Of a stretch of 32,619 nt of DNA, positions 257 to 24,107 are shown piece by piece. The stretch spans positions 1 to 32,619 of the forward strand of contig JAHBAR020000027.1 in the NCBI GenBank assembly GCA_018500015.2, read 5' to 3'. Numbering within the stretch: the first letter of the stretch is position 1; each line of letters opens with the position of its first letter. Source of the DNA: Candidatus Kerfeldbacteria bacterium. GTDB taxonomy: Bacteria; Patescibacteriota; Patescibacteriia; UBA9570; XYC2-FULL-38-9. The notes beneath the pieces are model-generated. The model saw only the letters and a list, made by a program, of their open reading frames with translations, made no database searches and was not told the DNA's origin. The translations under genes and the position numbers were made by a program.

Positions 257-265
257 TTTTAATTT
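239..265 (-). terminator. Hairpin terminator at the end of rnhB
   Basis: About 12 base pairs form between 239-250 and 254-265 around a CTG loop. The stem is GGG/CCC flanked by A-runs and T-runs on both sides, so it could terminate transcription from either direction. It overlaps the rnhB stop codon. Confidence 0.6.
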
Positions 266-875
266 ATTCCATTCCACGCATTGGCTGAAAAGATTTGCGA
301 TGTTCGCGCGTAATGCCGTATTGATCCAATGCTTGTTTGTGCAGCTGTGTGCCGTAGCCTTTGTTCACATCAAAACCATACTCGGGATACTGCACTGCAA
401 TCTGCTGCATGCGTGCGTCACGGTCAACCTTTGCGATGATCGAAGCGCACGCGATGGAATAAATCGTTGCGTCGCCGTGCGGGACCGCGGTGTACTTATA
501 TGGAAAGGCTAAAAATTTAAATGCGTCGACAAGCACAAAGTCAGGTTGCACTTTTAGCCCTTGAATCGCGCGCACCATCACGAGCTCGTTTGCGGCCGTG
601 ATCCCCATCTCGTCGATCTCGCTGGCTTCAACGTACGCGACGCACCACGCAAGCGCCGTTTCTTTAATTTCTTTTGCGAGCGCTTCTCGTTTTTTTGGCG
701 AGAGCGCTTTCGAATCTCGCGCGCCTTTCACAATCGGATGCAGTGGCATCACAACAGCGCCGGCAGCAATCGGCCCTGCCCACGTACCGCGCCCCACTTC
801 GTCGACACCCGCAACAGCGCGATATCCAGACTCCATTAGTCGCTTTTCGTTTGCGTGTGTTGGCTTATTGAACAT
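264..875 (-). CDS. rnhB: Ribonuclease HII
   Basis: RNase HII removes RNA from RNA-DNA hybrids, including single ribonucleotides left by replication. The 203-residue length is normal. The N-terminal signature GVDEVGRG (acidic pair D25-E26), the DSKALSPKKRE block, a later LVDAF aspartate and the IIAKVDRD block are all present, so the metal-binding acidic set looks complete. The ATG at 875 is preceded by a TATGAT -10 box with exactly 6 nt between, which suggests a leaderless message and supports this start. It reads towards the left edge, and the upstream side holds a structured repeat (955-1056). Confidence 0.95.
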   Translation of the reverse strand: MFNKPTHANEKRLMESGYRAVAGVDEVGRGTWAGPIAAGAVVMPLHPIVKGARDSKALSPKKREALAKEIKETALAWCVAYVEASEIDEMGITAANELVMVRAIQGLKVQPDFVLVDAFKFLAFPYKYTAVPHGDATIYSIACASIIAKVDRDARMQQIAVQYPEYGFDVNKGYGTQLHKQALDQYGITREHRKSFQPMRGME

Positions 876-887: not shown

Positions 888-954
888 TAAGAAGAGTACA
901 AAAAAAGAAATGGCTCATCTTGCGCCGTTGTGTTCACACAGAGAAAGATGCGCC

Positions 955-1056
955 GTCGTGGAACTCGCAAGGCGACCGAGGCGTACAGGGACGTACGTCG
1001 AGAGAGCCTGAGAGTGAACGACAAGTCCGGAGGGTCGCGAATTAAATTCGCGACAG
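955..1056 (+). repeat. Structured dispersed repeat, copy 1
   Basis: This segment matches 23580-23682. Both begin GTCGTGGA, then share GAGGCGTAC, GACGTACGTCGA-like and GAACGACAAG blocks. Here an outer stem (CTC + AGGC with GCCT + GAG) encloses a CGTAC/GTACG hairpin, and a terminal hairpin of about 10 bp (GTCGCGAATT with AATTCGCGAC) follows. In the other copy the same stems are formed by different bases. It lies just upstream of the promoter of the nucleotidyltransferase gene. Confidence 0.7.
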
Positions 1057-1066
1057 CTTTCCTGTG

Positions 1067-1095
1067 TGGACGCAACCATTATTTATCGGTATGAT
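1067..1095 (+). promoter_or_regulatory. Promoter of the RHH-nucleotidyltransferase gene
   Basis: TGGACG (1067-1072), a 17-nt spacer and TATGAT (1090-1095) are followed after 6 nt by ATG 1102. A transcript from this promoter would begin at or next to the start codon. Confidence 0.6.
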
Positions 1096-1101
1096 CTAGG
1101 C

Positions 1102-1917
1102 ATGAAAGCCCAAAGCAAAGCACGTATCACCATCACCTTGCGCAACGATCTTCTTCCACGCCTCGACAATTTCATCGACGGCGAAAATATCCGCAACCGC
1201 TCGCACGCCATTGAATTCATCCTCAACCAACAGCTTGGGGTTGGCATCGAACGCGCGGTTATTCTCGCTGGCGCTGATCACAACAACGTGGTGCACGCGC
1301 TTACACGCATCCGCAAACGCGCAACGATCGAGTACACATTTGAACTCCTCAAAAAATTTGGCATCCGCGATATTATTATCGTTATCGATCGGTATGGCGA
1401 CGAACTCAGAAGTTTTGTGGGCGATGGTTCGCAATGGGGTGTTCATGCACAGTTTGCGCAAGACGGGGAATCAATCGGCACAGCACACGCATTGCTCGCA
1501 GTGAAATCGCAACTCAAGAGTTCGTTTATGGTGATCTACTCCGACACACTCGTAAACCTCAACCTTGGCGATATGGTTGAACATCACGAACAAAACAACT
1601 TAAACGCAACAGTCGCACTCACCTATCGCAGATCTCCAGAAGAACGCTACGGTGTTGCGCGCATGGAAGGCAATAAAGTGCTCGAGTACTCCGAGAAACC
1701 GGGCAAAGAAGGTAAGCACGGCTTGGTAAACGCCGGCGTCTACATTTTCGAACCAAACATTTTTGATTATATCAGCAACGATACACAGTCAATCGAAAAA
1801 GAAGTACTCCCTCAACTCGCCGAACAAAAGCAACTCACGGGTTACCCGTTTCAAGGCAAGTGGTTCGATATCGCTCGCGACAACGATCGCAAGGCTGCCG
1901 AAAACGAATGGCGCTAG
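1102..1917 (+). CDS. Sugar-phosphate nucleotidyltransferase with N-terminal ribbon-helix-helix domain
   Basis: Residues 7-47 (RITITLRNDLLPRLDNF, then a helix pair) look like a CopG/MetJ-type ribbon-helix-helix DNA-binding domain. Residues 51-271 are an NTP_transferase domain of the glucose-1-phosphate thymidylyl/uridylyltransferase type, with GTAHAL, YSDTL (D148), EKPG and NAGVYIF blocks. The nucleotide-binding loop, normally LAGGxGTRLxPLT, reads LAGADHNNVVHALT, so the glycine-rich loop and its arginine are lost. Either catalysis is altered or the domain now senses a nucleotide sugar for the DNA-binding part. An in-frame start at 1066 exists, but ATG 1102 follows a good promoter by 6 nt and is preferred. 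Regulatory function is inferred. Confidence 0.85.
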   Translation: MKAQSKARITITLRNDLLPRLDNFIDGENIRNRSHAIEFILNQQLGVGIERAVILAGADHNNVVHALTRIRKRATIEYTFELLKKFGIRDIIIVIDRYGDELRSFVGDGSQWGVHAQFAQDGESIGTAHALLAVKSQLKSSFMVIYSDTLVNLNLGDMVEHHEQNNLNATVALTYRRSPEERYGVARMEGNKVLEYSEKPGKEGKHGLVNAGVYIFEPNIFDYISNDTQSIEKEVLPQLAEQKQLTGYPFQGKWFDIARDNDRKAAENEWR

Positions 1918-1927
1918 CCTCAACGTA

Positions 1928-3379
1928 TCAGATCACATACTCTCCCTGCCATTGCAGCTGACTGATCATCTGCACTTCTTCATCAGTAGGGGTATACGCC
2001 GTGCTCTCGTAATCACCTGGTGACTTACGGTATTTGTCATAGAGGCCTGCTTTACGATACCGCTCATTCACCGCATTCGCTATATAGTCTGGCGTAATCC
2101 CAAGCGCCCCGGCGTAAATACGTGCCCAATACTCAGTAAAAAATAATCGAAAATTTTTCCATCGCTCTCTGTCTTCGGTCGACACATCTTGAGCTGCAGC
2201 CAGGGTTGGCCGTTGCAACAGATCGTATGTGTTTGCTACTTCGATACAAAGTGCGCGCACATCTTGGACGCTCGCATCTTTTTCGCGCGGCAAGTACCAT
2301 GCAATGCCCTCAAAGTACGGTCCATAATTTGGATCTTCCCAACGATTCAAGAGTGGGTACTCACGTGGTCGGTATCGTTTGAGCGTTGCATCAATGGCAA
2401 AGTAAAGCAGGTCGGCGACACTCGGGCCTTCATATCCGTCTTTACCTAAACACGTTTCAATAAACGCATGAAATGCTTCGTGAATAATACTGCTCCGGGT
2501 CAAGCCATGCTCACTCAGGTTTTCTGCAAACTTTTTCTCAATATATGAGATGAGCAGATGCCCGTCGCGCTCAAGAATCTGATCAGAAATATCTGCAAGA
2601 GAGCATGGTGTCTGAAGTGCCTGCTCATACCACTGTTCAACCTGTGCTTTTTTTTGGATATAACGAGAGTCTTTTCTGGCTTTGTCTCCAAGAACTCTTC
2701 GCAACTCGTGATACCGCTCTGCTTTTTGTTGATACTCCTCACTTGATCGCTCATTTTTTTCTTCTGCGCTCCGAAGCCATGCGCGTAATTCATCAAACTC
2801 TGCGTACTCGGGCAGATCTTTTTCTAACTTTGAATGCAAATCATACAACTCTCCTTCGCGAGCAAATCGCTCGAGACGCAGAGCCTCAGCCCATACTCCT
2901 TGCTCTATGCGCTCTCTTTTGGCTGCTTGGTTAGGCTCTTGGTTAAAAAAGAGCGCGCCGTTTTCGTGAAATGCGCCAACATCTATTCCAATAACCTCTG
3001 CAAACTCATCAACAATAAACACATTGAAGTGACCAGGCACTCGAGCGATCGCCCCTTCCGCAATAGCGCGTTGCATGTTTTCCTCTAATCTATCATCACC
3101 AGCCCATCGAGAGGGCTCATACGTGGGGATGTGCTGCACGTCAATTGGAGTGTGCGCTAAAAAAGGAAGTGCGCGAAGCTCTGATCGAATCTCCTGAGGA
3201 GAGAGTCGTGTTTTCGTTTCAACCGCTTTATCCACGATACGTCGCAGCTCACGACGCATGCGTTCAGGTGTTCGCTCTGCAGCCTCTCCAACTTCAGGGA
3301 TGCCGCCCGCAAATACCGCAGCGGCGCTGCCGAGCGCTGTTTTGAGAAACTCCCTTCTGTCGATGCGTCTACCTTCCAT
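1928..3379 (-). CDS. Tat-exported HExxH metalloprotease-like protein
   Basis: The 483-residue protein starts MEGRRIDRREFLK, a clear twin-arginine signal (RRxFLK) followed by a hydrophobic alanine/glycine stretch to about residue 26, so export folded through Tat is expected. A zinc-protease motif HEAFH lies at 300-304, with a candidate third ligand E357 in FEGIAWY, as in gluzincins. Residues 155-255 are charged and helical. No named family was recognised. The longer start at 3496 lies inside the preceding gene, and ATG 3379 leaves a 14-nt gap after the dehydrogenase stop and puts the Tat motif at the N-terminus. It is the last gene of a minus-strand run after aminotransferase and glutamate dehydrogenase. 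Substrate unknown. Confidence 0.8.
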   Translation of the reverse strand: MEGRRIDRREFLKTALGSAAAVFAGGIPEVGEAAERTPERMRRELRRIVDKAVETKTRLSPQEIRSELRALPFLAHTPIDVQHIPTYEPSRWAGDDRLEENMQRAIAEGAIARVPGHFNVFIVDEFAEVIGIDVGAFHENGALFFNQEPNQAAKRERIEQGVWAEALRLERFAREGELYDLHSKLEKDLPEYAEFDELRAWLRSAEEKNERSSEEYQQKAERYHELRRVLGDKARKDSRYIQKKAQVEQWYEQALQTPCSLADISDQILERDGHLLISYIEKKFAENLSEHGLTRSSIIHEAFHAFIETCLGKDGYEGPSVADLLYFAIDATLKRYRPREYPLLNRWEDPNYGPYFEGIAWYLPREKDASVQDVRALCIEVANTYDLLQRPTLAAAQDVSTEDRERWKNFRLFFTEYWARIYAGALGITPDYIANAVNERYRKAGLYDKYRKSPGDYESTAYTPTDEEVQMISQLQWQGEYVI

Positions 3380-3393
3380 AGAGGTTGTGTGCG

Positions 3394-4626
3394 TTAGATG
3401 CGTCCGCGTGATTTCATTGAAGCGACAATGCGGCCGGTTGCATGTATATACGCCCCTGTCCTCAAATCTGTTTTGTGTTGTTGCGCTTGCTGCCACACAT
3501 CTTCTGTAGCACGTTCCATGATCGGCGTGAGTTTATTGAGCACCTCTTCCTCTGTCCAATAATAGTTTGCCAAATTTTGCACCCACTCAAAATACGAAGT
3601 GGTGACTCCACCTGCGTTGGCCAAAATGTCTGGCGCAAGTGTGATGTTATTTTGAAACAAAATTTTGTCGGCTTCAGGAAGTGTCGGGCCGTTGGCGAGC
3701 TCAACAACGAGTTTGGCGCGAATTGTTTTGGCAACCTCAGGAGTGATGACACCTTCGAGCGCTGCGGGAACTACGATGTCACAATCGAGCGCGAACAACT
3801 CTTCGTTGGACACAGCCTGCGCACAAGGGAAGCCCACAACGCTGCGTGTGGATTGTTTGTGTTTGGTGACTGCGTCAACATCCAAACCATCTGCGTTGTA
3901 AATGCCGCCTTTGGAATCTGAGAGCGCGACAACTTTCCATCCTTTTTTGAAACACATCTGAGCGTATGTTGCGCCAGCATTACCAAAGCCTTGCACTGCA
4001 ACGCGTGGATTTTTCAAACCCAATTTTTTGCTCACCGCTTCAGTCACGACCATGCCGCCGAATGCTGTTGCGATGCCGCGACCTTGAGAGCCGCCGACAT
4101 CGAGAGGTTTGCCGGTGATCACCGCTGGCGAGTAGACGCCAACTGCTTGTGAATACTCATCCATCATCCATGCCATGATTTGCGGAGTGGTGTACACGTC
4201 TGGTGCGGGGATGTCGGTGTGCGGACCGATGAATTTGCTCATTGCACGAGCCCAACCACGAGAGAGCTGTTCGAGTTCGCGCTCCGACAAACTTTTTGGA
4301 TCCACAGTCATGCCACCTTTTGCGCCGCCATACGGAATGCCAACGGTTGCGCATTTAAACGTCATCCAAAATGCGAGCGCGCGCACTTCGTGAATATCAG
4401 TTTGCGGATGAAAACGGATACCGCCTTTAAAGGGACCACGTGAGTCATCGTATTGCACGCGATACCCTTCGAACACCTTGAGGCTGCCGTCGTCCATGCG
4501 CACAGGAATTGACACATGCAATTCGCGCATCGGTTTTTGAAGTCGCGCGAGTGCGTTGGTGTCGATGCCGATGTATCCTGCTGCGGTGTCGAGTTGCTGG
4601 AGTGCTGCTTCAAATGGATTTGCCAT
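3394..4626 (-). CDS. gdhA: Glutamate dehydrogenase (Glu/Leu/Phe/Val family)
   Basis: It interconverts glutamate and 2-oxoglutarate plus ammonia with NAD(P). The 410-residue length is normal. Visible blocks are GPFKGGIRFHP (64-74), the catalytic-lysine segment PYGGAKGGM (K103), PAPDVYT and the Rossmann motif GFGNAGATYA. The start MANPFEAA overlaps the end of the aminotransferase gene by 17 bp, so the two are translationally close and probably one transcript. Together they would link transamination to ammonia. Coenzyme preference cannot be told from the sequence, and leucine or phenylalanine dehydrogenase activity is less likely but not excluded. Confidence 0.93.
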   Translation of the reverse strand: MANPFEAALQQLDTAAGYIGIDTNALARLQKPMRELHVSIPVRMDDGSLKVFEGYRVQYDDSRGPFKGGIRFHPQTDIHEVRALAFWMTFKCATVGIPYGGAKGGMTVDPKSLSERELEQLSRGWARAMSKFIGPHTDIPAPDVYTTPQIMAWMMDEYSQAVGVYSPAVITGKPLDVGGSQGRGIATAFGGMVVTEAVSKKLGLKNPRVAVQGFGNAGATYAQMCFKKGWKVVALSDSKGGIYNADGLDVDAVTKHKQSTRSVVGFPCAQAVSNEELFALDCDIVVPAALEGVITPEVAKTIRAKLVVELANGPTLPEADKILFQNNITLAPDILANAGGVTTSYFEWVQNLANYYWTEEEVLNKLTPIMERATEDVWQQAQQHKTDLRTGAYIHATGRIVASMKSRGRI

Positions 4627-23416: not shown

Positions 23417-23488
23417 GCCCACGTAGTTCAATGGATAGAACAAGGCACTCCTAACGCCTAGATGGTGGTTCAACTCCTCCCGAGGGCA
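23417..23488 (+). tRNA. tRNA-Arg(CCT), with weak pairs
   Basis: A cloverleaf with the anticodon loop CTCCTAA in an AGGCA/CGCCT stem and a TTCAACT T-loop. Three pairs are mismatched: position 5-68 in the acceptor (A-A), one at the base of the anticodon loop (A-C) and one in the T-stem (T-T). It may be a real, loosely paired tRNA or a decaying one. Confidence 0.75.
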
Positions 23489-23502
23489 CATGATTTTTCT
23501 TC

Positions 23503-23533: not shown

Positions 23534-23579
23534 CGTACGCTGCCATCAAACGCGAGTTCAGAAATGGATGCAATGCGAA

Positions 23580-23682
23580 GTCGTGGAGCTTGAGCGCTCC
23601 TGAGGCGTACTGGAACGTACGTCGAAGGAGTCGCAAAAGCGAACGACAAGCCCGAAGGGTCGACCGGCTCTGCCGGCGACAG
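23580..23682 (+). repeat. Structured dispersed repeat, copy 2
   Basis: This is the partner of 955-1056. The outer stem is GCGCTCCT with AGGAG-T-CGC around the CGTAC/GTACG hairpin, and the terminal hairpin is GTCG-A-CCGGC with GCCGG-CGAC. It lies upstream of the bactofilin gene. Confidence 0.7.
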
Positions 23683-23732
23683 GGCGCCATTTATGAAATC
23701 GCGTACGAGACACTCTAAATCTACGTATAACT

Positions 23733-24107
23733 ATGGCAGGCATGTTTTCAAAATCGGAGGAGGCAACACACATGACATCAAGCGAAGGTTCACACACCGT
23801 CATCGGCACGACCGTTCACATTGAAGGCACACTCAAAAGCGACGAAGATATCGAAATCGCAGGCTCGCTCAACGGCACACTCACGACAAGCAAAAACATC
23901 TCGATCCACTCTGGCGCAAAAGTTGAAGGCGACGTTCACGCGCACGATGTGCTGATTTCTGGCCAAGTGACTGGCGACATCACTGCAGCAGGAACTGCAA
24001 CGCTTACCAAAACAGCTCGCGTCACTGGCGACGTGGTTGCCGGCAATATCGCAATCGAACACGGCGCACAACTCAAAGGCCAGATGACAACGCAGTCGGC
24101 ACAATAA
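23733..24107 (+). CDS. Bactofilin (polymer-forming cytoskeletal protein)
   Basis: The 124-residue protein is mostly a right-handed beta-helix of short repeats (TTVHIEGTLKSDEDIEIAGSL, then GTLTTSKNISIHSGAKVEGDV and so on), typical of bactofilins. These self-assemble into filaments at the membrane and often position wall-modifying enzymes. The N-terminal 20 residues are polar and disordered-looking; the C-terminal tail is short. The DAG-kinase-like gene follows after 19 nt and could be cotranscribed. Confidence 0.93.
   Translation: MAGMFSKSEEATHMTSSEGSHTVIGTTVHIEGTLKSDEDIEIAGSLNGTLTTSKNISIHSGAKVEGDVHAHDVLISGQVTGDITAAGTATLTKTARVTGDVVAGNIAIEHGAQLKGQMTTQSAQ

Follow-up and report, generated by a model that had tools for sequence, protein, structure and literature searches.

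The window, a 32,619-nucleotide stretch of DNA, holds two copies of a structured repeat that probably belongs to a new family of mobile, non-autonomous hairpins dispersed in Patescibacteria genomes. The first-pass annotation had placed two structured repeats at 955-1056 and 23580-23682 and had proposed that their stems keep pairing with altered letters. Both copies lie at these positions, with a mean identity of 79% between them in sequence comparison, and the stems that were named pair in each. Related sequences in the same genome far exceed chance: blastn with a 122-nt query taken from one copy gives 23 matches, and a covariance model finds 37-38 dispersed copies, at or between genes, in 1.07 Mb. 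The boundaries first given captured the core but were too short, missing a closing outer stem of ~20 bp (Table 1). The two window copies share the blocks GTCGTGGA, GAGGCGTAC, ACGTACGTCGA, and GAACGACAAG, and have folding z-scores of -2.8 and -4.8.

Table 1. Coordinates of the two hairpin copies, their parts, and the genes beside them in the window.
Feature	Position	Strand	Pairing or detail	Basis
Element copy 1, entire hairpin with outer stem	927..1076	+	covariance model match 929-1074, 118 bits, E 2.4e-31	covariance model, fold
Copy 1 outer stem P1, 5' arm	927..947	+	partner 1057-1076	sequence, fold; P1 covaries in other copies
Copy 1 core	955..1022	+	GA-containing internal loops	fold, covariation
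Copy 1 core helices P2, P3	P2 955-959/1018-1022; P3 963-966/1012-1015	+		fold, covariation
Copy 1 core helices P4, P5	P4 970-973/1006-1009; P5 980-986/993-999	+		fold, covariation
Copy 1 optional side arm P7	1034..1054	+	1034-1043/1045-1054	sequence
Copy 1 outer stem P1, 3' arm	1057..1076	+	faces gene starting at 1102	sequence, fold
Element copy 2, entire hairpin with outer stem	23550..23704	+	covariance model match 23554-23700, 153.6 bits, E 7.9e-42	covariance model
Copy 2 outer stem P1, 5' arm	23550..23570	+	partner 23685-23704	sequence, fold, covariation
Copy 2 core	23580..23647	+	P2 23580-23584/23643-23647; inner helices; P5 23604-23610/23617-23623	fold, covariation
Copy 2 side arm P7	23659..23680	+	GTCG-A-CCGGC / GCCGG-CGAC	sequence, fold, covariation
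Ribonuclease HII gene, 5' side of copy 1	264..875	-		PF01351, E 4.1e-34
Nucleotidyltransferase gene, 3' side of copy 1	1102..1917	+	ATG at 1102	PF00483, E 2.4e-28
tRNA-Arg(CCT), 5' side of copy 2	23417..23489	+		
Bactofilin gene, 3' side of copy 2	23733..24107	+	ATG at 23733	PF04519, E 2.8e-25

Each unit is a single hairpin of ~118 nt, extending to ~180 nt where a side arm is present. From the outside inward it comprises the outer stem P1 (~20 bp with 1-2 mismatches or bulges), a 3-bp step (TGC/GCA), the 5-bp helix P2, an internal loop (GGA/GA), a ~14-bp helix that is often split, a second internal loop (GA/GA), and the 7-bp helix P5 with its short loop. Optional side arms, CCCGAAGGG and GTCG-stem-CGAC, are positioned between P2 and the 3' half of P1; four copies in the window's genome (C32, C31a, C33, and C7) are missing the side arm. 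Side arms excluded, core length is nearly constant across the phylum, at ~115-120 nt. Pairing of the arms is mostly 65-96% as far as ~3 nt past the ends of the model, beyond which it drops over a few bases to background, giving the outer stem a roughly defined length. This closing stem varies in sequence and nearly always keeps its pairing, and the paired arms lack sequence conservation across copies; no terminal inverted repeat is conserved in all of them. In some copies the first side arm holds a nested palindrome. Three copies in the window's genome (C36:15316, C39:4236-4412, and C31:4862-5038) have the near-perfect palindrome GATACGTCGTTCGCGAACGACGTATC nested in the CCCGAAGGG arm, as if a second mobile palindrome had inserted there. 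Non-Watson-Crick positions are also conserved: an A-C mismatch in the outer stem recurs in 74 of 111 copies (alignment columns 18/255), and G-U pairs are frequent at the foot of P5 (alignment columns 77-78/98-99).

Selection on structure, as proposed from the first two copies, is borne out by further copies, both in the same genome and in others, which keep the stems. We aligned 15 copies from the window's genome and took the structure from individual folds. Pairing holds in 94.5% of paired cells, with both partners changed at 26 of 45 pairs, against 33-42% of cells and 5-8 such pairs in slid controls whose partners were moved by 1-3 columns. The covariation score, 0.401 compared with 0.04-0.07 for slid partners, is reached by none of 500 column shuffles, and covariation is strongest in P1. 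The structure was derived from the same 15 sequences, which favours it over its slid versions; 112 copies from other genomes, unused in the derivation, also keep it in an alignment fitted to the model. The check that had been suggested, gathering genome copies into a covariance model and examining covariation and gene placement, thus ended with the stems retained.

The variable pairs also tell which strand folds. On the model strand, G-U outnumbers A-C by 98 to 23 (p 3e-12), and by 50 to 10 in the outer stem, with related copies counted as independent; on the same counting, the ratio is 30:8 where the element is antisense to the neighbouring gene and 20:2 where it lies in sense orientation upstream of a tRNA. 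A duplex cruciform would give G-U and A-C in equal numbers, and selection on the opposite strand would reverse the ratio, so the excess of G-U, antisense copies included, argues that one strand of the element is selected to fold alone rather than as a symmetric cruciform. The selected folded form is RNA or single-stranded DNA of the element itself, and the data fit both. The first proposal, RNA or cruciform DNA, therefore survives as to a folded single strand and not as to a symmetric duplex. In one genome (G155), four copies have cores 99-100% identical and identical 3' arms, and their 5' arms differ only by wobble-preserving transitions. Conservation of structure over sequence, single-strand folding, and positions after stop codons would also suit recombination sites like integron attC, or duplex cruciform DNA; such an identity is hardly credible, however, given that the neighbours of the examined copies are fixed housekeeping genes instead of cassette arrays, that the G-U excess disfavours a symmetric cruciform, and that direct target-site duplications are formed.

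Copy number is all-or-none, with 11-49 copies in the bearing genomes counted (49 in G312, 34 in G155, 29 in G377, 17 in G335, and 16 in G301) and zero in four genomes of the same family and four of the same order, in each of which every candidate was scored. The element is borne by at least 55 of 381 genomes sampled in the class (model R1) and at least 40 of 380 sampled in the phylum (model R2), figures that are lower bounds because few candidates were scored per genome. An exact core pattern matches 23 stretches in 84,980 species genomes; the named hosts are all Patescibacteria (Uhrbacteria, Kerfeldbacteria, and others), and the remainder are bacterial MAGs. Near-identical units occur at unrelated sites, with cores 99-100% identical at four loci (L204, L205, L209, and L210) and 93% identity over 184 bp at two others (L083 and L084). 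A search for viral carriage in IMG/VR with two exact patterns returned 0 matches, and Rfam, queried with the whole window at gathering score and with copy 1 at E up to 10, gave no match to a known family. In the literature searched, we found no account of repeats like these from CPR/Patescibacteria, and TIGR-Tas arrays looked different.

The element is polar with respect to gene edges. With gene calls from simple ORF heuristics and ARAGORN, a gene edge lies within ~10 nt of the 3' side in 56 of 104 cases and of the 5' side in 5 of 96 in other genomes; the polarity is the same in the window's genome (18 of 28 against 3 of 29). The edges most commonly met by the 3' arm are stop codons, found at -3 to +8 nt in 24 of 50 cases, and tRNA starts, with tRNA 5' ends at 4-10 nt in 21 of 23; tRNA 3' ends lie at 4-8 nt in 6 of 7. 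The annotated position upstream of plus-strand genes is correct for both window copies, whose 3' arms aim at the start region of such a gene from 25-30 nt away, but does not generalise, since the 3' arm adjoins gene edges of any kind. Beyond the gene that follows copy 1, and convergent with it, a 522-aa ORF (1928-3496, minus strand) has no Pfam match. No promoter of the element's own was found at fixed spacing in the 5' flank, and a terminator function was set aside by eye, there being no T-run past the hairpin. The polarity is what retroposition starting at the element's 3' end would produce; alternatively, target-site preference combined with selection against gene-breaking insertions might account for it.

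Certain tRNAs carry an element on each side, and alternating pairs occur between tRNAs. The 3' end of 23S is occupied in G054, G301, G335, G377, and G287, judging from flanking sequence, and the same sites (the rpsG-fusA spacer, the 23S 3' end, and the rplK 3' end) are occupied repeatedly in different genera or families. The rpsG-fusA spacer of the str operon is filled in three families of genomes (L052, L077, and L089), with three copies in one. Repeated occupancy of this kind could mean a conserved function, which would count against mobility. One such explanation is a functional RNA that stays in place, its hairpin processing or stabilising adjacent transcripts, spread by duplication and retained for that task. 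In agreement with this, the element sits on either side of tRNAs at a distance of 4-10 nt, just past stop codons and, in five genomes, at the 23S 3' end, and its compensatory evolution is strong. We consider it unlikely because the element is in sense orientation at tRNA 5' ends and antisense at gene 3' ends, yet the same strand has the G-U excess in both, so that no single role in the neighbouring transcript fits; moreover, no same-family genome contains the element, and the inspected sites lack it. The result on the sites came from 12 gene queries in G001-G008, where the orthologous sites inspected have no element past the stop codon.

Filled and empty sites can be compared within one genus, where the rplK-rplA spacer is filled in three species and empty in a fourth. 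In the G155/G377/G312 subfamily, 8 copies are bracketed at one common offset by 4-bp direct repeats, against 0.33 expected from shuffles, and direct repeats of 5-7 bp are also exemplified. Of all 183 copies, 42 are accompanied by a repeat of at least 4 nt, where shuffling gives 21.8 on average; most copies thus show no target-site duplication, and no clear signal was found in the window's genome. A G377 copy before a start codon reads TATG-unit-TATG, while the empty site in G155, a sister genome, has a single TATG and no pre-existing dyad, so the arms there belong to the element. The direct repeats and this empty site show that the whole hairpin, variable outer arms included, inserts in the G155/G377 subfamily; outer arms copied from the target, or formed by a dyad already present in it, are ruled out there by the conserved GAGAC..GTCTC ends and the dyad-free empty site. 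In the window's genome, the arms are almost wholly different even where the cores are 92% identical, which may reflect fast divergence or replacement; there, the arms may also be copied from the target or formed by a dyad present in it. The ends vary in other ways as well. One subfamily has TATGGACATCACATTA ends with constant spacing, and the loci examined hold no long autonomous version of the subfamily with terminal inverted repeats, only copies of constant size. At L083, L084, L096, L196, L200, L201, L215, and L311, extended palindromic ends like TATGGACATCACATTATGA occur with a constant spacing of ~159 nt and TA flanks, and resemble an IS630-type MITE. At L063, L097, and L099, in one family of genomes, the extended arms contain GTTAAC, and their outermost bases vary between copies yet pair.

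No transposase, reverse transcriptase (RT), or other gene is consistently linked to the element, which is present at 2 of 36 RAYT/RT loci, and two genomes with several copies (G125 and G371) have neither RVT_1 nor Y1_Tnp. Were the element a SINE-like retroposon, with its RNA reverse transcribed from the 3' end onto a 3'-OH that faces outward from a gene edge, exactly the polarity seen on either side of genes would follow, and the strand-specific tolerance of G-U would fit. RVT_1 is also found in 12 of 16 element-bearing genomes and 4 of 16 element-free ones (p 0.012, confounded by lineage). We judge this origin quite unlikely: RT is not detectable in four bearing genomes (G125, G357, G371, and G057), no series of 5'-truncated copies was seen, and the target-site duplications are short and of near-constant length, as is more typical of DDE transposition. 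The window's genome does encode an RT of ~333 aa (L280:1001-2002, contig C45), by eye of the diversity-generating retroelement type. Y1_Tnp is not enriched, occurring in 11 of 16 bearing and 8 of 16 element-free genomes. The window's genome has five Y1 (RAYT-like) transposase genes (L101-L105, on C28, C4, C13, C41, and C5), several of them flanked by differing palindromes such as GGGGCAGCCCTTAAAAGGGCTGCCCC or an CAAATCGGATTTGG-type repeat. These genes, the hairpins themselves, and BIME-like alternating pairs between tRNAs would accord with REP/REPIN-like repeats moved by RAYT transposases. That origin is very improbable: the palindromes beside the Y1 genes are unrelated to the element, no copy lies within ~1.5 kb of them, no RAYT gene flanked by the same repeat emerged from the tests made, Y1_Tnp is missing in 5 of the 16 bearing genomes, and a multi-loop fold of ~118 nt differs from REPs of 20-40 bp (PMC3733652).

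We favour a mobile hairpin acted upon in trans. An enzyme would recognise the folded single strand of the element, whether RNA or single-stranded DNA, which would account for the retention of pairing in a drifting sequence, and the 3' arm would settle facing a gene edge upon insertion. More tentatively, Patescibacteria may possess a mobility system whose substrate is this folded strand, as a SINE-like RNA or a single-stranded DNA hairpin transposon, with the 3' end joined to gene edges regardless of the direction of transcription. Where small hairpin repeats are usually identified through their conserved sequence, this family keeps its pairing as the letters change, and its dozens of copies per genome supply natural data on covariation. 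Both the strand-specific fold and the polarity make testable predictions about the mobilising enzyme. Annotation of reduced Patescibacteria genomes is affected too, as copies overlap stop codons of core genes, occupy the 23S 3' end, and come within 4-10 nt of tRNA genes.

Several known systems share part of this behaviour, although we know of none that explains either the strand-specific fold or the polarity of the 3' arm to gene edges. Integron attC sites are folded single strands conserved in structure and not in sequence, often located after a stop codon, and in these respects they resemble the element; the element differs in that the copies examined adjoin housekeeping and tRNA genes and lie in no cassette arrays, and in the short target duplications of one subfamily. 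HEARO and the omega RNAs of IS200/IS605-type elements are structured non-coding RNAs with many dispersed, partly stand-alone copies. The element is likewise structured and dispersed, but, in a comparison made through Rfam only, has no match, and it is closed by palindromic arms and has direct target-site duplications in one subfamily. Like REP/REPIN sequences with their RAYTs, it is an extragenic imperfect palindrome found at times in alternating pairs, but its fold is far longer and it has no linked Y1 gene. By how it works rather than by sequence, it could loosely be filed with the hairpin-forming MITE-like repeats of the ERIC, YPAL, RUP, and nemis class: the 38 copies in the window's genome are short, dispersed, intergenic, non-coding, and hairpin-forming, and target-site duplications with an empty site occur in G155/G377/G312, though not in the window's genome. 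YPAL and ERIC are intergenic, hairpin-forming mobile repeats of ~100-200 bp, and YPAL makes target-site duplications that vary in size and may affect how stable the RNA of the genes upstream of it is (PMC2229807). Unlike either, the element has helices that all covary between copies, one strand selected to fold, a 3' arm set at gene edges, and hosts found among Patescibacteria, and where YPAL has a target dyad, the empty site of the element has none.
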